Of a DNA stretch of 64,000 nt, positions 44,098 to 58,633 are shown in pieces. The position numbers and the translations under genes are program-made. The DNA comes from Planctomycetota bacterium. GTDB taxonomy: Bacteria > Planctomycetota > Planctomycetia > Pirellulales > Lacipirellulaceae. A model generated the notes under the pieces. The model was not told the origin of the DNA and ran no database searches. It saw nothing but the letters and a program-made list of their open reading frames with translations. Location: the NCBI GenBank assembly GCA_029259945.1, contig JAJDEF010000008.1, positions 124,001-188,000 on the forward strand, written 5' to 3'. The number at the start of each line of letters is the position of its first letter. The first letter of the stretch is position 1.

Positions 44098-44136
44098 CAC
44101 GACTTCCCAAATTTTCCTGTGGAATTTGTGCCACTT

Positions 44137-44149
44137 AGCGTGATACGCT
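44137..44149. promoter_or_regulatory. Small palindrome upstream of the prophage-like block
   Basis: AGCGT-GAT-ACGCT lies 40 bases after the DNase I-like gene and about 70 bases before the first hairpin of the block. It could be an operator for the block's first promoter. Confidence 0.35.
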
Positions 44150-44216
44150 TGCGTTCACATTGATGGTATCAAACTGAGCCCGAGTGCTTTTACAAAGCAC
44201 TAGCAATTGGGCATCA

Positions 44217-44263
44217 AGAGAGCCCGGTGTTGGAAATAGGTTGCCAACGTCGGGCTCTTTTTG
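44217..44263 (+). terminator. Terminator-like hairpin in the leader of the first prophage-like gene
   Basis: AGAGCCCG pairs with CGGGCTCT, with an inner GTTGG/CCAAC stem, followed by five Ts. It ends only 23 bases before the GTG start of the next gene and about 8 bases before its ribosome site, so no promoter fits after it. Confidence 0.82.
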
Positions 44264-44285
44264 TGTGCCTAGAGGAAATGTCCAC

Positions 44286-44876
44286 GTGGAAGCAGCGAAT
44301 CGCAATCTGGTGAGACTTTCGCAACAGGCGTCGAAGATACGTAGTGGAGATTTGTTGCTGTTTCGTGGTCGTGGCCTAGTGTCGCGGCTAATCGGAGTCG
44401 CAGGGCGAACTGATTACACACATGCTGCTCGCGCAATTTGGTGGGGTGACACGTTGTTTTGTTGTGAGGTGCGAGAGTTAAAAGGTGGGCGAGCCGTGAC
44501 GCTTGCGAGTCAAGTTAAGAAGTACGCGGGTTTAATTGACGTGTTTGAAGTGAATCCGAGCCGGCGTTGGCGAAACTACGACCGCTGCGGTGCGGTGCGG
44601 ACTATGCGGCGGCTGGCAGGCTGCGACTATGGATATCTTGGCGTTCTTAAGGCAGCGCTACAGCATCTCCCACTGTGGCGATTCTTAGTTCGCCCAGATA
44701 TGAATGACAAAAAGATGACCAGCCAGCCGCCCTTTTGCTCTCAGGCCTGTGCCATGGCCGATCGCGTCGGTGGGGGTGTCGACCCGGTACCACATTTGGC
44801 AGACCGGGTCACCGAGCCAGGAGATCTCGCGCGTAGTCCGTTCTACCGTTACCGCTTTACCTTGGCAGAGGGTTGA
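44286..44876 (+). CDS. Permuted papain-like enzyme (YiiX/NlpC-P60 type) in the prophage-like block
   Basis: A 196-residue protein of the circularly permuted papain-like (YiiX/YebB) family. The segment IRSGDLLLFRGRGLVSRLIG opens the fold, DYTHAARAIWW gives the likely catalytic histidine and PPFCSQACAMAD the likely cysteine. Members cut amide bonds in peptidoglycan, proteins or lipids, and some occur in phages as lysis or entry enzymes. GTG 44286 is chosen because AGAGG ends 11 bases before it. It has no signal peptide. The next gene, a membrane-bound protease, starts one base after its stop codon. Confidence 0.75.
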   Translation: MEAANRNLVRLSQQASKIRSGDLLLFRGRGLVSRLIGVAGRTDYTHAARAIWWGDTLFCCEVRELKGGRAVTLASQVKKYAGLIDVFEVNPSRRWRNYDRCGAVRTMRRLAGCDYGYLGVLKAALQHLPLWRFLVRPDMNDKKMTSQPPFCSQACAMADRVGGGVDPVPHLADRVTEPGDLARSPFYRYRFTLAEG

Positions 44877-44877
44877 A

Positions 44878-46017
44878 ATGACGGTTTGTCTTTGCAGAAA
44901 TCGAATTCTACGGCAGCCGATCATTTGGCATTGGCTCGTCGTGGCGCTGATTAGCTTCTGTATGTTGGCTCACGCGGATGCAGCGGAAACTCGCTCAGCC
45001 GTCTGTCGTGTCTATCACCAATGGAATGGTCAAAACAACATTGGTAGCGGGACGCTGATCGATCGAACTAGCGATGGCCGCCAGGGTTTGGTGCTTACTT
45101 GTGCCCATTTGTTTACGGAAGGCACCGGCGATATTGTGGTTGATTTTCCTGGTAGCAAATCCCACGGCGCCAAATTAGTAGGAATCGATCGTCAAGCTGA
45201 CCTCGCGGCACTTGTCATTGCCAATCCAAGTGCTACGCCCGTTTCTGTTTCTATCGATGCTGCCCAGACGGTAGAGCTTTATGCCTGTGGTTACGGGGCA
45301 AATGGTAAGTATCGCTGTGCCAGAGGTCTTGTTGTCGGACAAGCTTCTGCATTGGGGCAGACAAGTTTGTTGATCGGCGATGGCGTACGATCGGGAGACT
45401 CAGGGGGAGGCGTTTTCGACAATCATGGCCGCCTTGTGGCGGTCGTGTGGGGTGAGGCTCAGGGGGTCACCTACGCCAGTTCTGGTCAGCCGTTGCGACG
45501 TTTTCTTGCTCGTGCCCTCGGGCAACCGGCTGCGAATACCATTAGCTGTCCGAATGGCCTCTGCCCACTTCAACGACCGTCTAGGCCGGTTGTTGGGCCT
45601 AGTGGGAGTGCTCGAAAACCACAAGTGCAGCCGCCGCATGACCCTCGCTGGGATCAATTGCAGGCGGCGATTCAACGGTTGGAAAATACCAAGCAGGATA
45701 AAGGCAACTTTTTGACGCGGGATGAGTTGCCTGATGTGAGTGGTTTCGCGCGGCGTGAAGACGTGGCTCGAGTTGAGTCGGAGTCAACTAGCCGTCACCA
45801 GTCGATCATTGCGAGACTGGCCGCTATTTCATCCGGCAGAGGATCAACAGTAGGAAAAGCTGCTGGGGCCGCAGCCATCAGTTTGCTCGGCCTAAGTGGC
45901 CCGGCCGGCTGGGCCGTTCTCGCCGGCGGAACGATTGGCGGTTGGCTCATTGGTCAACGGATGCGACGTAAAAATCGCGGCGCTGGGGGTCGCCGCCGCG
46001 AAGTGTTTCCAGGCTAA
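44878..46017 (+). CDS. Trypsin-like serine protease with N- and C-terminal membrane segments
   Basis: A 379-residue protease. The signal or anchor helix is at residues 17-33 (IWHWLVVALISFCMLAH). The chymotrypsin fold shows the triad His77 (LVLTCAHLF), Asp108 (RQADLAALV) and Ser175 (GDSGGGVF). A Pro-rich linker and a coiled-coil-like part (WDQLQAAIQRLENTKQDKGNF, then RREDVARVESESTSRHQSII) follow. Near residues 325-360 there is a glycine-rich hydrophobic segment (AAISLLGLSGPAGWAVLAGG) ending in a basic tail, like a second membrane anchor. It starts one base after the preceding stop, suggesting tight coupling. A role in lysis, virion maturation or host-surface cleavage is possible. Confidence 0.82.
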   Translation: MTVCLCRNRILRQPIIWHWLVVALISFCMLAHADAAETRSAVCRVYHQWNGQNNIGSGTLIDRTSDGRQGLVLTCAHLFTEGTGDIVVDFPGSKSHGAKLVGIDRQADLAALVIANPSATPVSVSIDAAQTVELYACGYGANGKYRCARGLVVGQASALGQTSLLIGDGVRSGDSGGGVFDNHGRLVAVVWGEAQGVTYASSGQPLRRFLARALGQPAANTISCPNGLCPLQRPSRPVVGPSGSARKPQVQPPHDPRWDQLQAAIQRLENTKQDKGNFLTRDELPDVSGFARREDVARVESESTSRHQSIIARLAAISSGRGSTVGKAAGAAAISLLGLSGPAGWAVLAGGTIGGWLIGQRMRRKNRGAGGRRREVFPG

Positions 46018-46069
46018 ACAGGCGTGTCGTTGTGACCACACGGAAGAGGAGGTCACCGCAAAACAAGCG

Positions 46070-46330
46070 GTGCATACGTTTCGAGAAACAAAACAACCCA
46101 TCGAGCGCGACGATGCTGAGGCTCGTCAACTTTTACAACTTTCACGACTCGAAGGACGTGATCCGTTACAAGATGCAGTTGCAGGACGCCTTGCACTCGA
46201 CCGACTCGATGCGGTTGCCGATGGCGAGGGTGACCCGGACGAAGTCCGTTGGGCCGACGCACTAAGGCGAGAGCTACGCGAGCGATTTAACGACATTGCT
46301 CCCACCAAGTTTGAAGTACCTCGTACTTAA
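46070..46330 (+). CDS. Small charged protein of unknown function
   Basis: A frame of about 86 residues between the protease and the next gene. It is rich in Glu, Asp, Arg and Leu (ERDDAEARQLLQLSRLEGRDPL, DEVRWADALRRELRERFND) and looks like a helical protein. The GTG start at 46070 is uncertain: GAGGAGG lies 15 bases upstream, a long spacing, and the frame remains open further upstream. It fits the packed gene order of the block. No family recognised. Confidence 0.45.
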   Translation: MHTFRETKQPIERDDAEARQLLQLSRLEGRDPLQDAVAGRLALDRLDAVADGEGDPDEVRWADALRRELRERFNDIAPTKFEVPRT

Positions 46331-46396
46331 TTTAATTTTGTAAAAAGAATGATTGAATCATCCATACTAATTTGAGACTCCTTAGGAGACCGAATC

Positions 46397-47080
46397 ATGC
46401 CAGCAGGTGACCCCGGAAAAGAACAATTTCGCCGATCCATTACCGAGTTTCGTAATCTGCATATCGTTGCGGCATTGGGGCCGCTGCTCGATTTTCGGAG
46501 TGAAGTCGTCTCGAACGATGAGTTTGGTGTTCGTGGCGGTTTAGACGAAACGACGAAGAACCACTATGTCGAACATCTACTGGCGAGTGATCGCATGCGT
46601 CGACGAGTGACTTACAATCCAGAAAAAACGCCGTTAGGTGATCTCATCGAACAGGCAACGAACTCGAATGAAACGTTACTTGGGTCCACGAATCCTTTTG
46701 GCGGCGATGAAGTCCAAGAGGCTCCAGGCGGTTTGGTGGCCTTGCCTTGGGCACTAGATGGCACCGATTCCAATATCCCACTGGCCAGTCAGCTCAACTT
46801 TCGTAGTCAGAACGCACTCATCCTTTTGGGAGCGGTCGATCGCGCGGTCGTGAATTGGACTCGGCTCGAGAGTCGATTTCGTAGCACCTTTATCTACGTC
46901 AAAGATTCGATGCGAATGTACGGCAATTATTTGCAGATTTTGGAATACCTTAATGCGTTTGCTGGCGATGCGAACCGAGTGGATATGGCGGCTGGAGTAC
47001 GTCCGACTGAGGAACCACTTGGCCCGACCGATTCTCCGAATTTGAGAAGTGAAACGGCCGGTGGCAGCTCGCGTAGTTAA
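46397..47080 (+). CDS. Unknown protein of the prophage-like block
   Basis: A 227-residue soluble protein starting at an ATG after AGGAG. It has no cysteines and no signal peptide. Helical segments (ESRFRSTFIYVKDSMRMYGNYLQILEYLN) and a Gly/Asn-rich part (ETLLGSTNPFGGDEVQEAPGG) are visible. The C-terminal 40 residues are low complexity. I do not recognise a family; it could be a small terminase-like, structural or regulatory protein given its place before the packaging genes. Confidence 0.6.
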   Translation: MPAGDPGKEQFRRSITEFRNLHIVAALGPLLDFRSEVVSNDEFGVRGGLDETTKNHYVEHLLASDRMRRRVTYNPEKTPLGDLIEQATNSNETLLGSTNPFGGDEVQEAPGGLVALPWALDGTDSNIPLASQLNFRSQNALILLGAVDRAVVNWTRLESRFRSTFIYVKDSMRMYGNYLQILEYLNAFAGDANRVDMAAGVRPTEEPLGPTDSPNLRSETAGGSSRS

Positions 47081-47098
47081 CACAAAGGCAGACCAGAT

Positions 47099-47377
47099 TT
47101 GACCAATCCGCAAAGAATAGAACTCGGATGGCCCGCTGCGGCAACCATGATTGCAGCGATGATTGGTGCAGCAGCTACCTCGATCGCTTGGGCGATTGTC
47201 CCCGGTGCATCTGCAGACGAGGCGGCTGGAATTCGCTACGCAACGTCGCGTGAAGTGGGTGAAGTGAAAGCGCGGCTGGAGGCAATCGAGCACTCCAGCC
47301 GCCAGTTGCGAACCGAGTTGCGAGGAGATATCAGAGAGTTACGTGAATTAACACAGCAGCTGCTCAAGCAAAGTTAA
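47099..47377 (+). CDS. Small single-helix membrane protein with coiled coil
   Basis: A 92-residue protein: one membrane helix near residues 11-35 (WPAAATMIAAMIGAAATSIAWAI), then a polar coiled coil (VKARLEAIEHSSRQLRTELRG, continuing RELRELTQQLLKQ). The size and design resemble holins or spanin-like proteins, or a membrane stirrup; a holin role next to the protease and papain-like genes is possible but not shown. The start is TTG 47099. It ends just before the ParB-like gene. Confidence 0.55.
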   Translation: MTNPQRIELGWPAAATMIAAMIGAAATSIAWAIVPGASADEAAGIRYATSREVGEVKARLEAIEHSSRQLRTELRGDIRELRELTQQLLKQS

Positions 47378-47397
47378 CCAACGGAGAGGATGTTTTC

Positions 47398-47961
47398 GTG
47401 CAAATTCGCGATCGAATTAAGGAGTTGCGGCGGGTACGGGCGGGCGATTTGATTCCCCACGCTAAGAATTGGCGTACTCATCCCGATGCACAGCGTGATG
47501 CCTTGAGAGGCGTGCTCGCCGACGTAGGCTATGCCGACGCACTCTTGGTGCGAGAGCTTCCTGCGGGAGGTTTGCAGATTATCGACGGACACCTGCGTGC
47601 AGAAACCACGCCAGACGTTCAGGTGCCCGTGCTGATACTCGATGTGACTGAAGAAGAGGCGGAGAAAATTTTACTCACGCACGACCCACTAGCCGCCATG
47701 GCAACTGCCGATCAAAAACAAGTTCACGATCTGATCCAGTCGAGTGCGTTTGAAAACGAGCATGTGACAGAAATGCTCAACCAGCTTGAACGCGATATCC
47801 AGCGGTCAAACCAGGCATTGAAAGACCCCGTGGATGGTGTTGAAGTTGAGATTCCCGAGTTGTTTCAAGTGGTTATTGAGTGCCGCAATGAGGAAGAGCA
47901 GCAAACGATGTATGAGCGGATGCGAAAGGAGGGCTATCGATGCCGAGTCTTGACCTTGTAG
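47398..47961 (+). CDS. ParB-like nuclease-domain protein
   Basis: A 187-residue protein with the ParB/sulfiredoxin-like domain in its first 110 residues: LIPHAKNWRTHPDAQRDALRG, VLADVGYADALLVREL, IIDGHLRAET with the GHxR-type motif, and VPVLILDVTEEEAEKILLTHDPLA. It lacks the HTH of true ParB. In phages and their relatives, such proteins often sit beside DNA-modifying enzymes or act as nucleases or CTPases. The C-terminal 75 residues are helical and end in FQVVIECRNEEEQQTMYERMRKE. The last 22 bases overlap the next gene, which points to coupled translation. Start GTG 47398 has AGAGGA upstream. Confidence 0.82.
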   Translation: MQIRDRIKELRRVRAGDLIPHAKNWRTHPDAQRDALRGVLADVGYADALLVRELPAGGLQIIDGHLRAETTPDVQVPVLILDVTEEEAEKILLTHDPLAAMATADQKQVHDLIQSSAFENEHVTEMLNQLERDIQRSNQALKDPVDGVEVEIPELFQVVIECRNEEEQQTMYERMRKEGYRCRVLTL

Positions 47962-49058
47962 TGAGCTGCCCGGTATTCGATTCATTTCGTGTCCAGCAAG
48001 TGGCAGGCATGTTTGATGTGTCGCTTGCCGATAAGTGCACGGAACAGTTCAAGGTGGATTTGCCATCGCAGGAAGAGTCATGGCAGATCGGACTCATTGT
48101 GGGGCCTTCAGGCAGCGGTAAGAGCACCGTGGCACGCGAGGTTTATGCCGGAGAGCTTTACGGCCAGTTTGAATGGCCCGCTGACAAGGCGGTGATCGAT
48201 TGTTTCGGAGATATTCCGGTACGACAAGTGGTCGAACTCTTCACCGCGGTGGGGTTCAGCTCACCGCCTGCTTGGGTAAAGCCGTATCACGTATTAAGCT
48301 GTGGCGAGCAGTTTCGTTGCGATCTTGCTCGTGCGTTGGGATCGAAAAGCAGTGGCTCCAATGATTCGAGCAACATGACAGAAACGCCATTGGTTGCTTT
48401 CGATGAGTACACCAGCGTAGTTGATCGCAATGTGGCGAAAGCTTGTTCGATGGCCATCGCTAAAGGGATTCGAAGCGGGGCGATTCCATGTCGGTTTGTT
48501 GCAGTGACCTGCCACTATGACGTGGCAGAATGGCTTGAGGCTGACTGGGTACTGGACATGGCCACCGGGCGGCTAGAACGGAGGCGTCTTCGGCGTCCCA
48601 GTATCGACCTGGAAATCCATCGCTGCAGAATGGCGGCTTGGAAATTGTTTGCGCGCCATCACTATTTAAGTGGTTCGTTAGCACCTGGTGCCCGTTGTTA
48701 TTTGGCGACTTGGCAAGGAGAACCGGCTGCGTTTTGTGCAACCTTGTCGGTAATTGCTACGAAAAATCATCGGCGATTCACGCGAATTGTCACATTGCCT
48801 GACTATCAGGGTATGGGAATTGGAATGCGTATGGTTGCTGCCGTCGCGTCACTTCATCGCCAGGACGGGTATCGAATCAACGTTACCAGCAGTCATCCTG
48901 CGCTGATTCGTCACTGTCGACATTCAGAACAATGGAAGACGGTTTGTGTAAAGAAGACGGGTTCCAGCAAGAGTTTGTTTTCGTGTTTTAACACGTCGGC
49001 CAAGTATCGAAGCTCTACCGGCCGAGCGGTGGTGTCATTTGAATACGTGGGTGCCTAG
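47940..49058 (+). CDS. ABC-type ATPase fused to a GNAT acyltransferase (Mom-like possibility)
   Basis: A 372-residue cytoplasmic fusion. Residues 50-205 form a soluble ABC-type ATPase: Walker A GPSGSGKST (55-63), signature LSCGEQFR, Walker B LVAFDEYTSVVD and a switch histidine in TCHYD. No membrane segments, so it is not a transporter. From about residue 225 it is a GNAT-type acyltransferase: HHYLSGSLAPGARCYLATW, VTLPDYQGMGIGMRM with the acetyl-CoA loop. The HHYLSG stretch resembles the motif I remember for Mom-type DNA modification acyltransferases; this is a weak clue. The gene overlaps the ParB-like gene and is followed by terminase, so a role in DNA modification or packaging is plausible. 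Confidence 0.7.
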   Translation: MPSLDLVVSCPVFDSFRVQQVAGMFDVSLADKCTEQFKVDLPSQEESWQIGLIVGPSGSGKSTVAREVYAGELYGQFEWPADKAVIDCFGDIPVRQVVELFTAVGFSSPPAWVKPYHVLSCGEQFRCDLARALGSKSSGSNDSSNMTETPLVAFDEYTSVVDRNVAKACSMAIAKGIRSGAIPCRFVAVTCHYDVAEWLEADWVLDMATGRLERRRLRRPSIDLEIHRCRMAAWKLFARHHYLSGSLAPGARCYLATWQGEPAAFCATLSVIATKNHRRFTRIVTLPDYQGMGIGMRMVAAVASLHRQDGYRINVTSSHPALIRHCRHSEQWKTVCVKKTGSSKSLFSCFNTSAKYRSSTGRAVVSFEYVGA

Positions 49059-49077
49059 CGTGATAGTTGGTTCACTC

Positions 49078-50652
49078 ATGACAAAAAGCTATTCCCGAAT
49101 GTTGTTTGCGGCACAAGAACGATTCGCCCCTAAGGCTCGCGAGACAGCGGCCCCGGATTCGCTCGGCACGCTTTCTTGGGGTCGGCGATATCTTGTCGAG
49201 CATTTTCGTCGGCCGCCATCGCAGATGCACCGTTGGTTAGGAGATCAACTCGATAGTATTCGAGAAAAGCGAGGAACGAAGATTAATGTCATCGGGCCGC
49301 GTGGCGGAGCAAAGTCTACGATTGGCACACTTTGCTACGTGTTACGCGTCGCGGTTGAAGGTTGGGAACCATACATTTGGATTGTTTCTGATACCAAGAA
49401 CCAAGCGCAAACGCATCTGGAGAATATCAAGAACGAGCTGGAGGAGAATGAACGTTTAGCACGAGACTACCCAGAGGTCGTCGGCCAAGGCCCCTGTTGG
49501 CGAGCAACCACTTTGCAATTAAGGAACGGGACGGTTATCGAATCGTTTGGCACCGGACAACGATTGCGAGGACGCCGTCGACGGGAGAATCGACCCACAC
49601 TGATCATTTGCGACGACTTGCAGAACGATGCACATATGGCCTCGGCAGCGCAGCGTGAAACTAGTCGGCAGTGGTTTCACGGTACGTTGCTCAAGGCGGG
49701 GACGAAGAGCACGAACATCGTGAACTTAGCAACGGCGCTGCATCGTGACGCACTAGCCATGCAATTGCATCGCACGCCGGGATGGGAGTCCACCCAGTTT
49801 CGGGCAATTCAGCGTTGGCCAGATGACACGAAGTTGTGGGCGGAGTGGGAGGAGATTTATTGCGATGTCGAAAATCCCACTGCCCGTAGCGAGGCGTCTG
49901 CTTTTTATCGTAAGAACCAGTCCGATATGGATCGTGGGGTCGATCTGCTGTGGCCTGAGGAAGAAGACCTCTACACGCTCATGAAAATGCGTGTCGAGGA
50001 GGGACGCACTGCTTTTGAACGCGAAAAGCAAAGCTCGCCGATTGATCCCGAACGATGTGAATGGCCAGAAAATTACTTTGGCGAGCATATTTGGTTCGAT
50101 CAATGGCCCGAACAACTGCAATTCAAGACCCTAGCCCTTGACCCCAGTAAAGGCTCGGATGCCCGGCATGGCGATTATTCGGCGCTAGTGGTGCTTGGTG
50201 TTGATCGACAGGGGATTCTCTATGTCGAGGCAGACTTGGCTCGTCGGCCCACACCCCAAATGGTTGCCGATGGGATTTCGCTATGCCAAAAACATCGAGT
50301 CGATGCCTTTGGCGTAGAGGCAAATCAGTACCAAGAGCTTTTGGCGGGTGAATTTTCAGCCGAGTTCCTGCGGCGCAACATTCAGCGATCCTCGCCCTTG
50401 GCGATCCATAATTATGTGAACAAGCAGCTACGCATTCGGCGGCTAGGGCCCTATTTGTCTCAGCATCGTCTGCGATTCCTCAAGAGAAGTCCCTCCACTC
50501 AATTGTTGGTAGATCAATTACGAGACTTTCCGCTTGGCGGTCATGACGATGGGCCAGACGCGTTGGAAATGGCTTTGCGATTAGCCGAGGAGCTAAACCA
50601 CCAAGGGGCAGTGGATGACGGGCTAGGTAGCCGTATTCCTGTAGGCGATTAG
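49078..50652 (+). CDS. Phage terminase large subunit
   Basis: A 524-residue motor of DNA packaging. The ATPase domain has Walker A GPRGGAKST (73-81) and Walker B LIICDD (near 180), plus the coupling region LATALHRD. The nuclease domain has the RuvC-like metal sites LALDPSKGSDARHGDYSALVV and, near the end, GGHDDGPDALEMAL. The order and length match terminases of tailed phages. ATG 49078 is used; an in-frame TTG at 49039 inside the previous gene is possible. No small terminase subunit is recognised beside it; the unknown gene at 46397 could be one. Confidence 0.95.
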   Translation: MTKSYSRMLFAAQERFAPKARETAAPDSLGTLSWGRRYLVEHFRRPPSQMHRWLGDQLDSIREKRGTKINVIGPRGGAKSTIGTLCYVLRVAVEGWEPYIWIVSDTKNQAQTHLENIKNELEENERLARDYPEVVGQGPCWRATTLQLRNGTVIESFGTGQRLRGRRRRENRPTLIICDDLQNDAHMASAAQRETSRQWFHGTLLKAGTKSTNIVNLATALHRDALAMQLHRTPGWESTQFRAIQRWPDDTKLWAEWEEIYCDVENPTARSEASAFYRKNQSDMDRGVDLLWPEEEDLYTLMKMRVEEGRTAFEREKQSSPIDPERCEWPENYFGEHIWFDQWPEQLQFKTLALDPSKGSDARHGDYSALVVLGVDRQGILYVEADLARRPTPQMVADGISLCQKHRVDAFGVEANQYQELLAGEFSAEFLRRNIQRSSPLAIHNYVNKQLRIRRLGPYLSQHRLRFLKRSPSTQLLVDQLRDFPLGGHDDGPDALEMALRLAEELNHQGAVDDGLGSRIPVGD

Positions 50653-50719
50653 CAAGTAGGACTCGCGAGGTTGCTTTGGAATTAATGAGTTGTGAACTAT
50701 TTTATGGAGGACGAAGAGA

Positions 50720-52090
50720 ATGACCGAGTCGATTCACGCCGATCGTTTGGAGCACCGCCTGAGCGAAGCTTGTGATGCGTTGTGGGATCAGTTAGTCGAT
50801 CCACGTGAAGCATATCTTGATGGTGATGGGGTCTGGTGGGATAGCGTTTATGTGGAAGGACATTCTACGGGAGCTTTGAGTGTTCCTTTTAGCTCAGAGA
50901 AGCATTTGGAAGACATCCGGCATCAATCGCGGCATTTGGCCACAAACAATGAGTATGCGATTAACGGCATCGAGAATCGCATCAGTTATCTCATCGGTAC
51001 GGGACACAATTATCGAGCTTCGAGTCGCAAAGGAGCAGATGGGTCTGCAGGATTAGAAGCCGATGTTCAGCAGGTGCTGGATGAGTTTTTGGAAAAAAGC
51101 CGCTGGCACGCACGCCAGCAGGAGATCGTCCGCCGAATGGATCGCGACGGCGAGGTCTTCCTGAGATATTTTGTCGATCCTGACGGAACGACCAATGTCC
51201 GATTCGTAGAACCAGACCAAATCCAAACGCCCAAGGAATTAGCGAACTTTCCAGCCGCAAGTTTCGGAATCCGCACTGAACAGAACGACGTGGAATCGGT
51301 GCTCGGATACTTCGTTGATGGCGAGTTGGTGGATGCTAGTGCCATGCAACATCGCAAGGCGAACGTTGATGTGAACGTAAAACGCGGCCTGCCATTGTAT
51401 TACCCCGTGCGAAAGAATTTGCGCCGGATAGAGAAACTCTTGCGTAATATGAGTGTGGTCGCTGAGATTCAATCGGCGATTGCGCTGATTCGTAAGCATC
51501 GGGGCACTACTCGTAATGGTGTTGAACAATTTGTTGCGGATCAAAGTGTTACGGCAAATTCTGGAAGCCGGGCGAAGTCTCTTTCTCAATACGCCCCAGG
51601 TACAATCCTCGATGCACCTGCTGGCTTGGAATATGATTTCCCGGCATCAGGAATTGATGCAAGTAACTTTGTTACCGTGCTGCAAGCGGAACTCCGTGCG
51701 GTTGCTTCTCGCCTGGTCATGCCTGAGTTTATGTTTACATCGGACGCATCGAATGCCAACTATGCTTCGACCCTTGTTGCTGAAGGGCCTGCAATAAAGA
51801 TGTTCGAGCGATTGCAAGCGAATTTGAAGAATGATGACCGTCACGTAATGTGGCGGGTGCTAAAGAATGCAGCTGCGGCAGGACGGCTACCTCGAGATGT
51901 TCGTCAACGAGTCGATATTCAGATCACTCCGCCATCACTTCGAGTGCGAGATCAAACTCGGGAGTGTAAAGTAGAACAGATCGCATTCGAAAATGGTTTG
52001 TTGTCGCCCCAAACTTGGAGTTTGCGATTGGGGTTGGATTACGATCAAGAGCAAAAGAATATTTCAATGCACGGCATTGAGGCGACGTGA
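50720..52090 (+). CDS. Phage portal protein
   Basis: A 456-residue portal protein of the type found in tailed phages (lambda or SPP1-like). It has an N-terminal helical part (RHLATNNEYAINGIENRISYLIG), a central barrel-like part (RRMDRDGEVFLRYFVDPDG, VRFVEPDQIQTP) and the long helix typical of portal wings (LQAELRAVASRLVMPEFMF, then SNANYASTLVAEGPAIKMFERLQ). Portals form the ring through which terminase pumps DNA. GGAGG lies about ten bases before the ATG. It directly follows the terminase gene. Confidence 0.9.
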   Translation: MTESIHADRLEHRLSEACDALWDQLVDPREAYLDGDGVWWDSVYVEGHSTGALSVPFSSEKHLEDIRHQSRHLATNNEYAINGIENRISYLIGTGHNYRASSRKGADGSAGLEADVQQVLDEFLEKSRWHARQQEIVRRMDRDGEVFLRYFVDPDGTTNVRFVEPDQIQTPKELANFPAASFGIRTEQNDVESVLGYFVDGELVDASAMQHRKANVDVNVKRGLPLYYPVRKNLRRIEKLLRNMSVVAEIQSAIALIRKHRGTTRNGVEQFVADQSVTANSGSRAKSLSQYAPGTILDAPAGLEYDFPASGIDASNFVTVLQAELRAVASRLVMPEFMFTSDASNANYASTLVAEGPAIKMFERLQANLKNDDRHVMWRVLKNAAAAGRLPRDVRQRVDIQITPPSLRVRDQTRECKVEQIAFENGLLSPQTWSLRLGLDYDQEQKNISMHGIEAT

Positions 52091-52189
52091 AAAGATAGCT
52101 GCACAACCGTTCTATGACGTGTTCGTAATTTGCCGGTGGCTAAAAGTAGTTAATGAAATGGCGTGACTGATTTGTTAAGCTGTTGCATC

Positions 52190-52369
52190 ATGAGAGTAAC
52201 AAAGCAGATCGATATCAATGAGAAGAATAGCCGGGCAAAAGCCGAGTTTGCCAAAATGATTGAATCGGTTAGTAGTCGAGGTTTTTTTGGATCAGCGAGT
52301 GTTACTGTCAGTATTCAGGATGGACACATTCAGTTTACGCGAGTGGCTGTCGATCGCATGATTCGATAG
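52190..52369 (+). CDS. Small conserved-looking protein
   Basis: A 59-residue frame starting MRVTKQIDINEKNSRAK and ending IQFTRVAVDRMIR. It has one helical part and a strand-type segment (FGSASVTVSIQDGHIQF), as in small YezD-like or related folded proteins. The ATG 52190 is preferred over an earlier TTG-type extension; no ribosome site stands out. The gene lies in the gap between portal and protease and precedes a terminator-like hairpin. Function unknown. Confidence 0.5.
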   Translation: MRVTKQIDINEKNSRAKAEFAKMIESVSSRGFFGSASVTVSIQDGHIQFTRVAVDRMIR

Positions 52370-52450
52370 TGTGAAATCGGGTAGCTGATTTCAAGTTTGT
52401 TAAGGTATTGTACTGAGCTTGTGCCGTGATGTCGGCCAAGTATCAAGTCG

Positions 52451-52498
52451 AGCCCCGTTCGAGAGATTTCCTAGGAAAGTCTCGAGCGGGGCTTTTTT
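52451..52498 (+). terminator. Terminator-like hairpin in the leader of the prohead protease gene
   Basis: AGCCCCG pairs with CGGGGCT, and TTTCCTAGGAAA and CGAGA/TCTCG pair inside; a run of six Ts follows. It ends about 38 bases before the ATG of the protease gene and 24 bases before its ribosome site. Too little room remains for a promoter, so the message of the next gene probably begins before the hairpin. Confidence 0.85.
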
Positions 52499-52535
52499 GT
52501 GCCAACATTTTTCTTCAACAAGAGGAAAGGGCAAA

Positions 52536-53522
52536 ATGGTAGAAGCACTGCAAGAGTATTTCGACTCACGTGACGTCACGGTTCGGGTTGATCGAGGCCA
52601 GAGTGTTTTAAGAGGCGTTAAACTTATTGGCTTAGAGTCGCGAAATGGACGTCGATATCGTGATTCGACCTTGGATCAAGCGGCATCGCTCTACGAAGAG
52701 GCGAAGGTCAATGTCAACCATCCCAAAGAGGGGCCGTTGTCGCCCCGAGATTATCAAGATCGCCTAGGGGTGATTCGTGGTGTTGAGCAGCGGACTGGCG
52801 AAGGATTGTTCGGCGACCTTCACTTCAACCCCAAACATGTTCTGGCGGAACAGTTGGTTTGGGATGCAGAGCACAACCCTGGCAATGTGGGGTTTTCTCA
52901 CAATGTCTTGGCACGGCTGTCGCACGAAAGCGAAACCACGGTGGTCGAAGAAATTACTCGTGTTTTAAGCGTTGATTTAGTTGCGGATCCAGCCACCACC
53001 CAGGGGCTTTTTGAGCAGGCCAAAGAATCGGCAGCCGCGGATGAGTCAACGCGGTTGTCATCTTCGTGGGATGCGCTCACGTTGGAAACCGTGAAATTGC
53101 ACCGCCCCGATCTGTTTTCAGAGATCGAATCGTCCGAGTTGGAACAACTGCGAGCCCAGTTGGAGGTGTCACAAGCACAAGCCGCGATGCTTCAGCGCCG
53201 ACAGCGGATCGTCGAACTACTCCGCGAACACCAGTTGCCGGTCCCGGCAGAAGAGATGTCGCCTACGGAAGGATTCGATGAGGGAAGCCACATCGTTAGC
53301 CAAGCATTTTTTGAGACATTGATGGGGGTGGATGACGGGGAGCTTGAAAGTCTGATTATCGAACGGGCCGAGTTGGTGCGGAGTGTATCACACTGGAGTC
53401 ATCGTCTTGCCAGTGTTTTGGGGCCTCAATCCCGCGATCAAATGTCGATGTTTGCAGCGACAAGTCCTGAGGGTCCCATGGTTCAAGATTTTGCGAAGTC
53501 GCTAAAGACGATGCGTCATTAA
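52536..53522 (+). CDS. Prohead maturation protease with scaffold-like C-terminus
   Basis: A 328-residue protein. The first 180 residues look like a phage prohead protease: GVKLIGLESRNGRRYRDSTL, NVNHPKEGPLSPRDYQDRLG, GFSHNVLARLSHE and VEEITRVLSVDLVADPAT. The serine or histidine residues of the active site are probably H in NHP and S in GFSH. The remaining 145 residues are helical, with an Ala/Gln-rich coiled coil (LEQLRAQLEVSQAQAAMLQRR) like a built-in scaffold. Phage proteases of this class cut scaffold and capsid during maturation. ATG 52536 fits a purine-rich AGAGGAAAGG upstream. Confidence 0.78.
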   Translation: MVEALQEYFDSRDVTVRVDRGQSVLRGVKLIGLESRNGRRYRDSTLDQAASLYEEAKVNVNHPKEGPLSPRDYQDRLGVIRGVEQRTGEGLFGDLHFNPKHVLAEQLVWDAEHNPGNVGFSHNVLARLSHESETTVVEEITRVLSVDLVADPATTQGLFEQAKESAAADESTRLSSSWDALTLETVKLHRPDLFSEIESSELEQLRAQLEVSQAQAAMLQRRQRIVELLREHQLPVPAEEMSPTEGFDEGSHIVSQAFFETLMGVDDGELESLIIERAELVRSVSHWSHRLASVLGPQSRDQMSMFAATSPEGPMVQDFAKSLKTMRH

Positions 53523-53609
53523 GCAAGAGGTCTCGCTCGAATGAGTGGTTTGGCGAGTAGCTTCTTTTGAAGAAACCCATTACCTATTTAAAGCCGGAGG
53601 AAAAAAGAG

Positions 53610-54083
53610 ATGGCAAACACGATGCGTTGGAGATATGGGGATACAAGCCCAGTTGTATTACCGACAAATACGAATTACGAGGTTAATATCGGGGATTTAT
53701 TGTACTTAGAAGTCAATCACGTTCGCCCTTCTTCAGCCCAAGCTGACCAAGCGACACTGATAGCTAACCAAGAGCTGTTTCATGACAAGTTTGTCGGCAT
53801 AGCGATGCAAAGCTCCCCGGCAGGTAATTCTGATCCTGTGCGAGTTGCCACACGAGGTGTATTTGAGTTCGATAGCCCTCTGTCGACGCATGAAGTCGGC
53901 GAATTATTGGGTGCTAACGAGGATGGAACTGGAACGCAGTTGGAAGAGCAAAGCGTCATTGGAGTCGCGACACCCAATCTGGCAATAGGCAGATGTGTGA
54001 AGCGAGTTGCGACCGCGAGTACACGCGTCCTTGTCGATATTGTCAGCACGGTGGTAAGTGGAGGCCCTCAGGCGGCGGCTTAA
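53610..54083 (+). CDS. Head decoration or cement-like protein
   Basis: A 157-residue beta-rich protein starting after GGAGG. It begins MANTMRWRYGDTSPVVLPT, has a FVGIAMQSSPAGNSDPVRVATRG segment and ends in VLVDIVSTVVSGG. This is the usual shape of DUF2190-type capsid cement or decoration proteins that bind the outside of the head. Its place between protease and capsid genes fits this. No membrane or signal segment. Confidence 0.72.
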   Translation: MANTMRWRYGDTSPVVLPTNTNYEVNIGDLLYLEVNHVRPSSAQADQATLIANQELFHDKFVGIAMQSSPAGNSDPVRVATRGVFEFDSPLSTHEVGELLGANEDGTGTQLEEQSVIGVATPNLAIGRCVKRVATASTRVLVDIVSTVVSGGPQAAA

Positions 54084-54174
54084 CCTTTTTGGATGGTCGA
54101 GCAAGGATGAGTAGATTTCAACTAGCTGACAAGTCATAGATCAAAACCAGATAAACAAGTATAGGAGAATTTTC

Positions 54175-55335
54175 GTGACACTCAATTATCGCGAACTCAA
54201 ACGACGCTATGATCTCGATGGTGCCGATCGAACGGTTGATCATCTTTCCGAGTCATTGCGAGAAGGGCACCTTTGCCCCGAAGATTTTAGTCTACGCGAC
54301 TTAGCCGAGGCGCTTGTGCCCGATGGTCGCCAATGGGTGAGAATGCTGGATCCAAGATCCAGTGGAAATGTTAGTGTGACAGAAGCTGGCGATGGCGTTG
54401 ATGTCACGGCATTCTTGAACATTACTGGGCAAGTTATCTATTCCAAGATACTTGATGCCTACGAACAGGAAAATTTCGTCGCCTCGAAACTCGTGCAGCA
54501 TATCCCCACCCGACTTGATGGCGAAAAGATACCTGGTATTTCGCGTGTTGCAGACGGCATTGATGAAATCGCGCCTGGGATGCCTTATCCGAACCTTGGC
54601 TTTGGCGAGGACTACATCGAAACCCCTTCGACCGCCAAGCGAGGATTTATTGTGCCTGTAACAAAGGAGGCAATTTTCTTCGATCGTACCCATCTGGTTT
54701 TAAGTAGGGCAGCTGAAGTTGGCGAAGTATTGGGTCTCAATAAAGAAAAGCGAATTCTTGATGTTATCATCGGGGCGACCAATAACTACAAAAGCAATGG
54801 CGTTAGCTCAAACACCTATTCCACGACGGGATCGTGGGTCAATGAACTCGCGGTCAACGAGTTGGTTGATTGGACCAACGTCGATGCAGCCGAGCAACTT
54901 TTTGCCGAAATGACCGACGACCATACGGGCGAACCTGTGTTGGTTCGAGGAACAACGGTACTTGTCATGCCCGCCTATCGGCACGCAGCACACCGTGTTT
55001 TTAATGCGGCAGAGATTGCTTATTCGGGAGCAGGCTCACCCACTGCGACGACCGCCTCGAATCCGCTGGGGAATTACCAAGTTGAAGAGAGTCGCTTGGC
55101 TTATCGTCGAATCTTGTCTTCGGGCGTCATTGCTGCTGACGCAAAGAAATGGTGGTTTGTGGGTGATTTCCGCAAGGCATTTGCTTATATGGAAAATTGG
55201 CCAATTACCATCACCCAAGCACCAATTAATAGCGAAGCCGATTTCAATAATGACATTGTGCTGCGATTCAAAGCGAGCGAACGCGGCGCGGCAGCGGTCT
55301 TGAATCCGCGGTATGTCGTGAAGTCTACCGGTTAA
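54175..55335 (+). CDS. Major capsid protein
   Basis: A 386-residue protein in the place of the capsid gene, right after protease and decoration-like genes. The N-terminal about 60 residues (YRELKRRYDLDGADRTVDHL) are charged and helical, like the part removed by the prohead protease. The rest has the HK97-type layout: a long helix region (LTAFLNITGQVIYSKILDAYEQ), central strands and the C-terminal segment NWPITITQAPINSEADFNNDIVLRFKASERGAAAVLNPRY. This end is typical of capsid proteins. It starts with GTG after GGAGA. Confidence 0.75.
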   Translation: MTLNYRELKRRYDLDGADRTVDHLSESLREGHLCPEDFSLRDLAEALVPDGRQWVRMLDPRSSGNVSVTEAGDGVDVTAFLNITGQVIYSKILDAYEQENFVASKLVQHIPTRLDGEKIPGISRVADGIDEIAPGMPYPNLGFGEDYIETPSTAKRGFIVPVTKEAIFFDRTHLVLSRAAEVGEVLGLNKEKRILDVIIGATNNYKSNGVSSNTYSTTGSWVNELAVNELVDWTNVDAAEQLFAEMTDDHTGEPVLVRGTTVLVMPAYRHAAHRVFNAAEIAYSGAGSPTATTASNPLGNYQVEESRLAYRRILSSGVIAADAKKWWFVGDFRKAFAYMENWPITITQAPINSEADFNNDIVLRFKASERGAAAVLNPRYVVKSTG

Positions 55336-55352
55336 ACGCGCAGTTAGGTCGA

Positions 55353-55385
55353 GGAGCCGGCACAAGCGATCTTGTGCCGTGCTCC
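55353..55385 (+). terminator. Strong hairpin after the capsid gene
   Basis: GGAGC-CGGCACAAG pairs with CTTGTGCC-GT-GCTCC around a CGAT loop, 18 bases after the capsid stop. No T-run follows, so it is more likely an mRNA-stability or processing structure than a full terminator; strong hairpins after capsid genes often keep the message for the most abundant protein. Confidence 0.65.
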
Positions 55386-55435
55386 CCACACCTTTCGTCT
55401 TCTCCAAAGATAATCTGGATAGGAGAACATAATTC

Positions 55436-55921
55436 ATGGCATCAGGCGATTCATTGCTTTTGTTTGATCCACTTTCCAATCGACCACCGGTAGCAAATTA
55501 TGCGTCTGTGGATTTGCGGAATGGATTCGTCGTGTTGGATTTTGACGATGCGACCAACGAAACAGCCCAATTCCTTGCCGTCTTACCCAGCCACTATGGC
55601 GGAGGACAGTTATTGGCAGTTGTGACTTGGACAACCACTACGGCTATTACCGACAATGCAAAACTTCGGGTTGAAGTCACTCGCCTTGGCGGAGGTGCCA
55701 GCCTTGCTGTGCTACCAGCAGTCGATGGGAGCGTTGATATGACGGTAACCGCACCGGTTACTAGTGGGCAATTAGTTCTATCCCAGTCATCCGCAATACT
55801 CGCAGGTAATGCCGTTGCCGGTGACCAACTGTTGGTGGGGCTCACAAGACTTGCAGCCGACGTAGCTGATGTGCTGGTGGGCGATATCGAATTCGTCTCG
55901 ATAGAAATTCGCGAGGTCTGA
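55436..55921 (+). CDS. Beta-rich structural protein of the prophage-like block
   Basis: A 161-residue protein with a long run of short strands and Gly, Ala, Thr and Val (LLAVVTWTTTTAITDNAKLRVEV, TVTAPVTSGQLVLSQS). It resembles small virion or fibre proteins, for example the neck or tail-tip type in tailed phages and similar proteins in capsid-only elements. No named domain is recognised. AGGAG lies about 11 bases before the ATG. It starts a second short gene run with tight overlaps. Confidence 0.55.
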   Translation: MASGDSLLLFDPLSNRPPVANYASVDLRNGFVVLDFDDATNETAQFLAVLPSHYGGGQLLAVVTWTTTTAITDNAKLRVEVTRLGGGASLAVLPAVDGSVDMTVTAPVTSGQLVLSQSSAILAGNAVAGDQLLVGLTRLAADVADVLVGDIEFVSIEIREV

Positions 55922-55923
55922 GA

Positions 55924-56697
55924 ATGGCATTTTCTGTCAACGCCACCAATCTGGTTTTTAGCACAATAGCGCCAATCGCTGGCTATCCGTTTTCGTTAAT
56001 GGGTTGGTTTCGTGTGCCCGACGTGAATATGCAATTACCTCTAATGGGGATATGGGATGTTTCTGGCGTAGCGCAAAGCAACGTATTGTTTGCAGGCGAT
56101 ACGACCAAGGTTGCGATGGCAAAGGTAAAGAACGGCATCTTGGAAGCTGTCACAGAGTCGAGTTTGATGACTCCAGAAACGTGGCATCATTTAGTGGCCG
56201 TCTATGCGTCGGATACGCTGAGGGTAATTTATCTAGACGGCGTCAATGTGGAAGTGAACACCGACAATGTTCCAATAACACCGCTGAATTTGGCCTATTT
56301 CGGCAACTATGCAGACGGCGTGTTTGTTGACATCGCTGAGGTTTCGATTGTCGAGGCAGAGGTGAGCGCAGAGCAGGCAGCGGAATTAGCAAGTAGGCAA
56401 CCAATGTTGTCAACACCGCTCGCAAAACATGCTGTAGCCTATCAAGACTGCATTCGCCAGCGGAATCACCCTGGCCTGGGGCCTGCCTTCTCCTTTGCAG
56501 GAGCATCAATAATCGTTGATCACCCCAGCATTCTCCTTCCGACTAGAGGTGTCTCGGCGGTCATGCCAGTGAGATTTAGAGGGCCATGGCAAACAGACCA
56601 AACAGAGTTACAGGCATCGTCGACTGACATCGGTCAGCTTGCTATGGCTGGTGTTGTGTCCCAAAACTCAATTCTTTCCGGAGAGGTAACTAGCTGA
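55924..56697 (+). CDS. LamG/concanavalin-like fold protein
   Basis: A 257-residue protein. Residues about 20-160 follow the laminin-G-like or concanavalin sandwich: YPFSLMGWFRVPDVNMQLPL, ETWHHLVAVYASDTLRVIYLDG and LNLAYFGNYADGVFVDIAEV. This domain binds sugars or other ligands and is common in phage fibres. The last 100 residues are mixed and end in ILSGEVTS. Its stop overlaps the next start (TGATG). Confidence 0.72.
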   Translation: MAFSVNATNLVFSTIAPIAGYPFSLMGWFRVPDVNMQLPLMGIWDVSGVAQSNVLFAGDTTKVAMAKVKNGILEAVTESSLMTPETWHHLVAVYASDTLRVIYLDGVNVEVNTDNVPITPLNLAYFGNYADGVFVDIAEVSIVEAEVSAEQAAELASRQPMLSTPLAKHAVAYQDCIRQRNHPGLGPAFSFAGASIIVDHPSILLPTRGVSAVMPVRFRGPWQTDQTELQASSTDIGQLAMAGVVSQNSILSGEVTS

Positions 56698-57095
56698 TGG
56701 CGGTTGCAAAAGATATTCACGCGACGGTGTTTCGTAATGCTACGGCGACATTCATGGCACGGGTAGAGAATGCTACTGGCCAGGCGATTAACCAAGTGTC
56801 AATTGCCTCAATTCGTTACACAGTCTACGAACTTGATTTTAGCGATCCCAGCATACTGCTACCCATCACGGGTCACGATCAGGCGTTGCTTTTGAAGACG
56901 GATGTCGTATTCGACACTTTGCAGCTGGATGCTGTCTGGACGGTCGACGCTATAGGATACAACTTCAGGCACGAGCTAGATGTTTCGCTCAACGAGGCGT
57001 TTCCAAAAGCAGGCGGAGTCTATCAGGTCCGCTACGAGTTGACACCTGTTCTAGGGCAGAAGATTGTATTTCGATTTCATATGAGGTGCATTTAA
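56697..57095 (+). CDS. Beta-rich protein of unknown function
   Basis: A 132-residue protein with a regular strand pattern (VSIASIRYTVYELDFSDPSILLP, VYQVRYELTPVLGQKIVFRFHMR). It begins with an overlapping TGATG, so it is translated with the previous gene. It looks like a small structural or accessory virion protein; no named family. Confidence 0.55.
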   Translation: MAVAKDIHATVFRNATATFMARVENATGQAINQVSIASIRYTVYELDFSDPSILLPITGHDQALLLKTDVVFDTLQLDAVWTVDAIGYNFRHELDVSLNEAFPKAGGVYQVRYELTPVLGQKIVFRFHMRCI

Positions 57096-57097
57096 CG

Positions 57098-57316
57098 ATG
57101 GCTACTGAAACAGAGCAAATCGCGTCGATTCGTAGTTTAACCTTGGCGCAGTTAGAGCAATTGCGAGCTAGCCCTAAGCCAACCTATTCCATCGATGGGC
57201 AGCAAGTCTCTTGGACCGCCTATATCGAGTCATTGCAACGGACGGTGGATTGGTGCGATTCAAAACTAGCAGACTACGAACCGTTTGAAGTTCAATCTCA
57301 AGGGATGACGGGATGA
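57098..57316 (+). CDS. Small helical protein of the prophage-like block
   Basis: A 72-residue acidic protein (MATETEQIASIRSLTLAQLEQL, then YIESLQRTVDWCDSKLADYEPF). It starts three bases after the previous stop and overlaps the next gene by an ATGA. This type of small protein is often found between virion genes as an assembly helper, but it has no recognised domain. Confidence 0.6.
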   Translation: MATETEQIASIRSLTLAQLEQLRASPKPTYSIDGQQVSWTAYIESLQRTVDWCDSKLADYEPFEVQSQGMTG

Positions 57317-57960
57317 TTATCGATCACAATGCGGCTACCGATTTCTCAGACATCATAGATGGAACTGAAAGTCTGGTTTTACGCCGGCAAAATAACTTGC
57401 AAAGTGTGTCGATCATCGCTGCTCGGCGTCAAAGTGTGGTGACGCAAGAGGCGGTGCCAAGTGGTGGTGCAGCCCAGCAAGCTGATGCGGTATGGCATTT
57501 TCCGCTGCCTGTTGGAGAATTGGCTCCCAAATTAGGCGATGCTTTGGTAGATGGACAAGGTGGTCGATGGACAATTCTTGAAATTCGAGAGTTGCCATCA
57601 CTGGGGCGTTGGAAATGTGAGACACGCGAGTTGAGCGTTGCTTACGGCTGCGTAGATCGCGTCGATATTGAACGCGCGGTTTGGGGAGATATTGGTTCAG
57701 GCCCCGAAATCGTTGCTTGGGTGTATGCCTTTACGGCACTACCCGTCAAAATCCAGCCAGAGGACATGAAAGTCGTGGCTGGTTCGGTGCCGACTGTGAC
57801 CAACTCGCGGTTCCACATTATTTTGAGCGAGTCGATCTTGTTAGAGCCGGATGATCGGTTTCTGGCTGAGGATGGCACCATCTATACGCTAGAATCTTAT
57901 GAGCAGACTGATCGTATCGATGCATTACCGATTGCAAAAGTGTTACGGCAGGATGTTTGA
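57313..57960 (+). CDS. Head-to-tail connector-like protein
   Basis: A 215-residue protein starting at the ATG of an ATGA overlap. It has strand-rich segments (SLVLRRQNNLQSVSIIAARR, ADAVWHFPLPVGELAPKLGDAL, ESILLEPDDRFLAEDGTIYTL). The last part resembles head-completion or stopper proteins at the neck of tailed phages, as do its position and size. It is the last plus-strand gene of the block; no tail tube, tape measure or fibre genes follow. Confidence 0.5.
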   Translation: MIIDHNAATDFSDIIDGTESLVLRRQNNLQSVSIIAARRQSVVTQEAVPSGGAAQQADAVWHFPLPVGELAPKLGDALVDGQGGRWTILEIRELPSLGRWKCETRELSVAYGCVDRVDIERAVWGDIGSGPEIVAWVYAFTALPVKIQPEDMKVVAGSVPTVTNSRFHIILSESILLEPDDRFLAEDGTIYTLESYEQTDRIDALPIAKVLRQDV

Positions 57961-57961
57961 T

Positions 57962-58507
57962 TTACTCAATGGAAGTCACTTCTCGAAACAACATCGCGGT
58001 GAATTCGCGCATGAGATTTGCCTTGTCACTCTCTAGAATGACCGCAACTTGGTACATTAATTCCTGGCGAGTGTTCATCTCTTTGGCTGATGCGAGTGTG
58101 CCTTCTTTCGTGAGCTCGCCCCCAACGGCCATGCGGCTGTATAACTCATCAAAATCGGTCTGTGTCCAACTCGCAAATAGGTCCGGATGCTCACCAATCA
58201 CATCGGCGACGATCGGGTTGGTGGCACGATCGAACAGTGCTTGCCCTGCTTGATAGGGGTCTTTGAATAATTCGTCGGTCGAGACGCCGAACCCCTCAGC
58301 CAGTTTATGCAGCGTACGGGCATGTGGACGCGAGACACCCTCTACGATGTTTCTTATAGTCCGATGGTCAAGGCCCGTCGCTTCGACGACTTCGAGCAAA
58401 GTCATGTCTAAGCGAGCCATCAAGCGCCGAACGTTGGCGCCGTGGAGTGTGCGGAGGCCGGTCGGTAGGGTTGAAGACGGTGTCCTAGGCACGATGTGAA
58501 CTACCAA
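57962..58507 (-). CDS. XRE-type HTH regulator
   Basis: A 181-residue regulator whose 3-prime end lies one base from the connector-like gene, in opposite direction. The N-terminal HTH (ANVRRLMARLDMTLLEVVEATGLDHRTIRNIVEG, then RTLHKLAEGFGVSTDELF) is a lambda repressor-like domain. The C-terminal half (ATNPIVADVIGEHPDLFASWTQTDF) is a planctomycete-type extension with unknown use. The start is uncertain: TTG 58507 or GTG 58492. It is the natural candidate for repressor of the block. A palindromic operator lies about 35 bases upstream of its start region. Confidence 0.75.
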   Translation of the reverse strand: MVVHIVPRTPSSTLPTGLRTLHGANVRRLMARLDMTLLEVVEATGLDHRTIRNIVEGVSRPHARTLHKLAEGFGVSTDELFKDPYQAGQALFDRATNPIVADVIGEHPDLFASWTQTDFDELYSRMAVGGELTKEGTLASAKEMNTRQELMYQVAVILESDKANLMREFTAMLFREVTSIE

Positions 58508-58539
58508 GAATTGTGAAGGATTCCCCCATGCGGGTCACA

Positions 58540-58553: not shown

Positions 58554-58633
58554 GTATATGGTCGGATAGGTCAAGGGCATTGATCGTATCAGGCGGTGTG
58601 CATGGGGGGGGTTATGAGTCATAATGGCAGGCT

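Follow-up and report, generated by a model that had tools for sequence, protein, structure and literature searches.

A block of phage head and packaging genes occupies positions 44184-58507 of the window analysed here, a stretch of 64,000 nucleotides (64 kb, to which all coordinates refer) of contig JAJDEF010000008.1 from a planctomycete of the family Lacipirellulaceae (order Pirellulales, class Planctomycetia). In the list of open reading frames (ORFs) it forms a compact run of forward genes closed by one convergent gene, and the genome to which it belongs (G000; 3.48 Mb, 44 contigs, 92% complete) has a single copy of its capsid gene. The explanation that we favour, with reasonable confidence, is domestication of the head and packaging apparatus of a phage: the block would be a viriform resembling a gene transfer agent (GTA), which became fixed in the chromosome of the Pirellulales, is passed on vertically and has lost its recognisable tail genes in the Lacipirellulaceae. 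Direct observation here covers the identity of the genes, their shared chromosomal place, their co-diversification with the host, the selection acting on them and the absence from the family of the four tail families tested; what the block does for its host is set out below in conditional terms.

The core genes are readily named. The sequence-only reading of this DNA had described terminase, portal, protease, decoration-like, capsid and connector-like genes in phage order, with a convergent helix-turn-helix (HTH) gene closing the block, and profile searches bear this out, all named genes being present and open, in the order described. On the forward strand these are the terminase large subunit TerL (49039-50652; phrog_38, E 2e-78; Terminase_6C, 1.5e-9), a portal protein of the lambda family (50720-52090; Phage_portal_2, E 2.5e-23), a probable head maturation protease (52419-53522; phrog_207, a weak match at E 2e-4), a capsid cement or decoration protein (53610-54083; Phage_cement_2, E 1.2e-5), the major capsid protein (54175-55335; Phage_capsid_4, E 1.1e-15) and a neck or stopper-like protein (57313-57960) recognised by its fold; the convergent gene (57962-58507, reverse strand) matches HTH_3 (E 4e-8). 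The same reading had found no recognisable tail, integrase or replication genes, which also holds: in a Pfam and PHROGs scan of the 20 ORFs of 44184-59965, a set that leaves the small gene at 52163 outside, no tail or integrase family appeared beyond chance-level matches, the only such names being a tail sheath on the capsid (E 0.02) and, where the ATPase gene has its P-loop, a DNA transposition protein (0.05) and a DnaA-like protein (0.1). Since the same genes recur in the same order across many related loci, the block is more than a chance assembly.

Our sample comprised 97 genomes of the family and order (numbered G; loci or contigs are numbered L, and families of the GTDB order f), of which 43 are Lacipirellulaceae, 28 of these being at least 90% complete. 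TerL finds a match in 80 of the 97 genomes at E<=1e-3 and in 73 at E<=1e-60, the stricter threshold being passed by 36 of the 43 Lacipirellulaceae and by 27 of the 28 near-complete ones; secondary matches in some genomes are weaker, at about 46% identity or below. The same block stands on a contig of Botrimarina colliarenosi, a genus that the NCBI taxonomy places in the Lacipirellulaceae, Pirellulales, and Adhaeretor mobilis, another cultured member of the family, has it too. Gene order was compared over those 85 of 137 loci that span 9 kb or more, many of which end at contig edges, so that absence from a locus does not equal loss; the capsid gene is found in 82 of them, the protease in 77, cement in 72, portal in 58 and terminase in 57. 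Two flanking genes recur with the block in several genera, an endonuclease-like gene at 43057 (16/85 loci) and an FMO gene at 58634 (9/85), and the former lies upstream within about 5 kb of the block in families f2 (G043, G086), f3 (G063) and f18 (G075). Beyond this sample, a scan of GTDB contigs with the capsid protein returned 74 loci, all with planctomycete titles, and the capsid profile found relatives in 104 of 347 genomes of the class and 21 of 343 of the phylum (overlapping samples); E lies below 1e-150 for matches within the order and fades to about 1e-17 in the remaining orders of the class, with a single match outside the class (G435, 2e-50). TerL also occurs on 12 IMG/VR contigs, three of which (L032, L033, L037) carry the block plus host flanking genes and thus appear to be pieces of chromosome, not free phages; the block is probably counted as an uncultivated virus in viral databases.

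The block appears to be mainly vertically inherited, with its head and packaging genes under strong purifying selection. Distances between TerL sequences follow those between the rpoB sequences of the hosts (Mantel rho 0.73 over 28 genomes, and 0.65 over 17 genomes inside the family), as do those of the major capsid protein (0.72, 18 genomes), and the TerL and rpoB trees of 27 genomes have 13 of 24 splits in common, where 2000 shuffles of the labels reached a maximum of 3. The ratio of non-synonymous to synonymous substitution rates (dN/dS) ranges from 0.024 to 0.244 over 17 genes (dS 0.84-1.93) relative to the nearest relative, G008, the pair on which all of these values are based, most remoter pairs being saturated at synonymous sites; it is 0.052 for the terminase, 0.049 for the portal and 0.038 for the capsid, and rises above 0.13 only in the trypsin-like and LamG-like genes. 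All 58 TerL sequences have D368, E427, D503, D504 and D507 unchanged, and all 56 with letters at the positions of K92 and D192 have these two, while H101, S160 and H161 of the protease are invariant in 77 of 77 aligned copies; judging by their protein families, we take these to be catalytic residues of the terminase motor and nuclease and of the protease.

Two of the checks that the sequence-only reading had proposed, a search for the same block at the same place in relatives and a test for dN/dS below one, came out positive, and the single strain with frameshifts that it had named as a counter-case is false, with TerL in 36 of 43 family genomes. Among the four readings it had offered, those of a GTA-like or domesticated capsid system gain support, while degraded prophage and satellite are disfavoured by the shared flanks, the presence in 27 of 28 near-complete genomes, the co-diversification with the host and the purifying selection. 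A decaying prophage remnant would fit the lack of tail and integrase families in the block, the interruptions in G028, G038 and possibly G001 and the variable loss of the neck gene, yet it is made very improbable by conservation across the order at shared flanks, by dN/dS values of 0.02-0.24 and by the conserved motor residues; the relaxed selection and sporadic distribution of a cryptic or degraded prophage are not what we find (dN/dS 0.024-0.244; 27/28 near-complete genomes). Capsid-forming satellites (cf-PICI) carry head genes without tail genes, and satellites integrate and move. A satellite with a capsid of its own and tails borrowed from a helper phage would resemble the block in having head and packaging genes without tail genes, but the scanned block proteins include no integrase, the location is shared, the block follows the host tree, and potential tailed helpers are few, with a tape-measure gene over the cut-off in 4 of the 43 family genomes. 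We rejected this candidate and consider it highly unlikely.

The tail is present elsewhere in the order. In other families, a tail terminator (Tail_completion_gp17, E 4e-12), a phrog_22694 protein, a tube-like protein (Phage_tube_2 at 0.012, below the cut-off) and a protein of about 288 residues lie 3' of the neck gene. Other genomes have a second tail set, in which one protein matches Phage_tube_2 clearly (2e-19) and a large one is a putative hub, so named by position and having no family match. Four tail models built from these relatives (288-residue protein, terminator, tube and hub; threshold E<=1e-3) matched 31, 28, 25 and 7 of the 97 genomes, respectively. At least one clear tail match is found in 31 of the 37 TerL-positive genomes outside the Lacipirellulaceae, the remaining six being G049, G059, G061, G070, G075 and G077; the contigs that carry the block in G049 and G070 are short. 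Among the 36 TerL-positive Lacipirellulaceae, none has a clear match to any of the four models anywhere in the genome, other tail families lying outside the search; related species may inherit one loss, and these 36 tail-less genomes are not 36 events. As relatives in other families carry tail genes directly 3' of the block, their absence from the Lacipirellulaceae is probably a derived state. Loci L193-L198 and L203-L204 (G127, G145, G175, G056, family f15) hold a more distant version of the block, its capsid matching at E about 1e-79; in several of these genomes the set of tail genes is longer, and the element may be a sister with a tail or a candidate for a full GTA.

One could also speculate that the element is a complete tailed GTA, the tail genes of which lie at another locus in this family and are too divergent for models derived from relatives. 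It is common for the genes of a GTA to be scattered among several loci, according to the excerpts of PMC9662315 cited here, and some genomes outside the family (G050, G076, G086) have the block on multiple contigs or places; 14 of 22 family genomes retain a full-length neck protein, and weak partial tail-model matches occur in the family genomes G014, G031 and G011. Against this stand the lack of a clear match in the family with the four tail models, the loss of the neck protein in 6 of 22 family genomes, and a tape-measure Pfam model that exceeds its cut-off in only 4 of the 43 (9 at E<=0.001), with no match in the genome of the window. The proposal in the sequence-only reading that tail and integrase genes might be found elsewhere as the rest of the same prophage meets the same result for the tail, the integrase search having been confined to the block. 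A tail locus elsewhere in the family was set aside as a candidate, as the four tail models and the tape-measure model gave no shared candidate. We regard a complete tailed GTA as an unlikely, if serious, alternative.

The protein that would join head and tail has a less uniform fate than the head itself. Its AlphaFold model is mainly strand, with a mean confidence score (pLDDT) of 89, and its best Foldseek matches in the PDB are neck or stopper proteins of phages, SPP1 gp16 among them, and a chain of RcGTA, with E from 2e-3 to 7e-3 and no PDB match below 0.001; PilZ-type proteins are found at ranks 6 and 7 with lower probability, and SaPI1 at rank 12. Among viral models, 34 match at E<=0.001, several of them named head-tail joining or head closure, and the neck profile has a weak match to SPP1 gp16 (E 0.055, residues 112-188). 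On the evidence of the predicted fold, the C-terminal half is probably a head-completion (stopper) fold, a plug closing the filled head. At the block of 22 family genomes, the terminase, portal, 52163, protease and capsid genes are present in 22/22 (with the capsid gene of G038 interrupted), and the cement and 57086 genes in 21 each; of the neck gene, 14 of these genomes have the full length, 2 have half and 6 have nothing. Head and motor thus persist while the neck erodes.

The make-up of the block suggests a head that is built, matured and filled and, in most species examined, sealed as well. In the mechanism that we propose, the HTH regulator would control the block, the capsid would assemble and be matured by the protease, and the terminase, with the ParB-like and ATPase-GNAT proteins possibly standing in for a recognised small subunit, would drive DNA of the host, not of the block itself, into the head by way of the portal. 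The stopper-like protein, where present, would seal the filled head. Tail-less, DNA-filled heads would then be freed by lysis, perhaps aided by the peptidase-like gene, LamG-like head fibres would attach them to neighbouring cells, and DNA freed from the heads would enter recipients via the ComEC-type uptake machinery of the family. The packing and release of host DNA we infer from the fixation of the block, its lack of mobility genes and the precedent of GTAs; tail-less transfer is a bold reading. More tentatively, and with somewhat less than even confidence, we suggest that the whole family makes tail-less DNA-filled heads as a host function, with the DNA released or stored and taken up through the competence of recipients. 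The block would then belong to a larger group of planctomycete head blocks by descent, many of them tailed.

Several observations weigh against a domesticated, tail-less system of this kind. No small terminase subunit was recognised in the block, which is known here from its genes. In the excerpts of PMC10218006 the tail fibre of RcGTA appears essential for the passage of DNA into the periplasm, so that tail-less heads may not deliver DNA. The competence (ComEC-type) family is found in 40 of the 43 family genomes and all 28 near-complete ones, but also in 10 of 14 control genomes, and is hence common and of little weight as support. As to the tail, there are weak partial matches to the 288-residue model in G014 (E 9e-6, 61/291 positions) and G031 (5e-5) and a weak match to the tube model in G011 (9e-4), all of which we set aside as weak and partial candidates for a tail of the family. 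As to inheritance, 11 of the 24 TerL splits conflict with rpoB, for which exchange or error are both admissible causes, and G013 (97% complete) lacks both TerL and the HTH gene. The GC content of the block is close to that of its surroundings and its codon usage is near-identical to that of 27 neighbouring genes, with no clear separation (p 0.07); the GC content at third codon positions is slightly lower (0.51 vs 0.57).

There are also signs of decay and rearrangement, among them the variable loss of the neck gene. The terminase of the G001 draft is split over two frames, and the ATPase gene of G028 is split; in the terminases of G015 and G028 one in-frame stop each was flagged, yet open frames of 525 and 702 residues span the match. 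In G003 (L129, L231) the half of the block from protease to HTH gene is reversed in strand and flanks the terminase half on its other side, an arrangement that an inversion would leave, and there is no neck gene. The capsid gene of G038 has an insertion of about 12 kb after about residue 278 (L125 near 5166, L230 near 12575), with a recombinase-like gene at its start and a terminase-like gene within, by eye; it seems that a separate mobile phage element inserted there. Beyond the insert come the remainder of the capsid gene and the 57086 and HTH genes, and the neck gene is absent.

A tail lost, and often a neck, with the motor kept, is what one would expect if delivery no longer matters, and the capsid could thus have been domesticated for a role other than transfer, such as the protection, storage or degradation of intracellular DNA, or lysis of the cell for altruistic or defensive ends. 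Nothing positive speaks for such a role, and the LamG-like protein suggests extracellular binding, yet its evolution is fast and many loci lack it. We consider this rather improbable. A dedicated defence system was likewise rejected, PADLOC giving weak matches only (trypsin-like protein to RT-Protease, 2e-7; ATPase to mad3, 7e-9; HTH protein to capH, 4e-7).

We keep to a GTA-like viriform as the best description and compare it with known systems. Encapsulins are HK97-fold capsids kept by a cellular host, without terminase, portal or protease. The block differs in that it keeps all three, conserved, and with TerL and portal in 22/22 family genomes examined it does not fit an encapsulin. Relatives among phages are distant: TerL matched 182 of 50,697 phage records, all below 60% identity (32-36% among the 15 matches listed), the major capsid protein matched none of these records at E 1e-5, and the capsid profile found no relative among PDB sequences at E<=0.1. 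RcapMu, KS10 and Pseudomonas JBD26, which we take to be Mu-like phages, share about 32-36% identity with the terminase over most of its length, and the block capsid has a sub-threshold match to Mu gpT (E 0.006). Mu-like phages are mobile, with tails and a transposase, whereas the block shows neither tail nor transposase.

In the excerpts of PMC9662315, GTAs are described by six features: proteins derived from caudoviricetes that form caudovirion-like particles, encapsidation of mostly random host DNA, a fully endogenised genome, often over several loci, incomplete packaging of their own genome since the head is small, mainly vertical inheritance with host co-diversification, and delivery of the packaged DNA to other cells. 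Two of the six are observed for the block, namely endogenisation (shared flanks across genera and families, no integrase in the block) and vertical inheritance (Mantel rho 0.73; 13/24 splits common vs a shuffle maximum of 3, 11 disagreeing), and we thus call it GTA-like rather than a GTA; as to particles, the block proteins are phage-derived, with no clear tail genes in the Lacipirellulaceae. It resembles RcGTA (Rhodogtaviriformidae) in having phage-derived head, terminase and neck genes that are chromosomally fixed and co-diversify with the host, and the fold of the neck protein is similar to RcGTA chain 6tba_3A (E 5e-3). It differs in that RcGTA is tailed and alphaproteobacterial, while the Lacipirellulaceae block shows no tail, belongs to a host of another phylum and is read from genomes only. 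The terminase of a prophage in another planctomycete, Zavarzinella, was placed near RcGTA-like ones, according to the excerpts of PMC7947584. BaGTA and BhGTA (Bartonella, Brachyspira), compared by description in the excerpts of PMC9662315, are likewise domesticated tailed phages in the chromosome; their reported particles are tailed, with early Bartonella reports mentioning some tail-less ones.

According to the excerpts of PMC11841831, a recent review, the hunt for GTAs has paid off in alphaproteobacterial lineages, and finding them in bacteria further removed has been hard. In the papers listed by searches of the open-access PMC literature, preprints excluded, titles and abstract openings name no planctomycete gene transfer agent. 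A vertically inherited head-packaging block throughout an order of Planctomycetota would be a candidate for an independent domestication in another phylum. If the tail-less reading is true, this would be a viriform that has discarded its delivery tail, its DNA being released or stored in protected heads, and the tailed and tail-less families offer a built-in comparison of whether the tail is needed for what selection maintains, or whether packing and release of DNA are enough.

The place of the block is partly unstable, with a permuted order in G047 and G093. In these genomes (L127, L139 and L156; L150) the terminase lies 3' of tail genes and not before the capsid. In two complete genomes, G005 (L118, L141) and G029 (L119, L155), about 4-5 kb of host-like genes, judged by eye, lie between the portal and the next block gene, and the block thus need not be one operon. 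The HTH protein is a candidate regulator of the block: its gene is found in 65 of the 97 genomes, 62 having both it and TerL, 11 TerL only, 3 the HTH gene only and 21 neither (Fisher p 2e-10, uncorrected for kinship). The best HTH match lies at least 40 kb from the terminase in G025, G030, G033, G018, G035 and G058, which would fit a regulator acting at a distance, paralogues being possible. No RNA families or tRNAs were found in the window.

The remaining genes, all on the forward strand, include some that the sequence-only reading had left unnamed, namely the ParB-like and ATPase-GNAT genes of the conserved block and the two protease-like genes at 44184-46017. The first (44184-44876, start codon uncertain) encodes a papain-like cysteine-peptidase-like protein with a homologue in 30/85 loci, no Pfam match, a phrog_1128 match (6e-13) and a weak match to the cysteine peptidase of PDB 3kw0 (E 0.0013), possibly a wall hydrolase. 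It is followed by a trypsin-like protease (44749-46017; Trypsin_2, E 3e-14; 36/85 loci; dN/dS 0.23) with hydrophobic stretches by eye, the true start of which is probably further downstream. The protein at 46397-47080, with 95% identity to the nearest relative, is under the strongest constraint among the block genes measured (dN/dS 0.024); it has no Pfam or PHROG match and an unusable structure model (pLDDT 36), and an apparently different protein family (c50) occupies its position in other genera. After a small protein that is membrane-like by eye (47099-47377; 10/85 loci) come the ParB-like protein (47398-47961; phrog_620, E 4e-11; 49/85 loci), possibly a DNA-recognition partner of the terminase, and the fusion of an ATPase with a GNAT acetyltransferase (47940-49058; phrog_11143, E 2e-99), which has relatives in 51 phage records, every one below 60% identity. 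Some of these phage relatives have a ParB/Srx or DNA methylase annotation beneath the match.

In the gap between portal and protease lies a small conserved protein (52163-52369; 22/22 family genomes examined) with no NCBIfam match. Downstream of the capsid gene, the protein at 55436-55921 (11/85 loci) is possibly a head decoration or fibre base, and the LamG/lectin-like protein (55924-56697; Laminin_G_3, E 2.3e-9), which has the highest dN/dS of the block (0.24), possibly a head fibre. A further small protein 3' of the capsid genes (57086-57316; 70/85 loci, 21/22 family genomes, 93% identity to the nearest relative) is conserved across families. Adjoining the LamG-like gene is a protein found in 36/85 loci (56697-57095), the homologue of which in G047 (L127, about 14.3 kb) lies upstream of the ParB gene and not 3' of the capsid.

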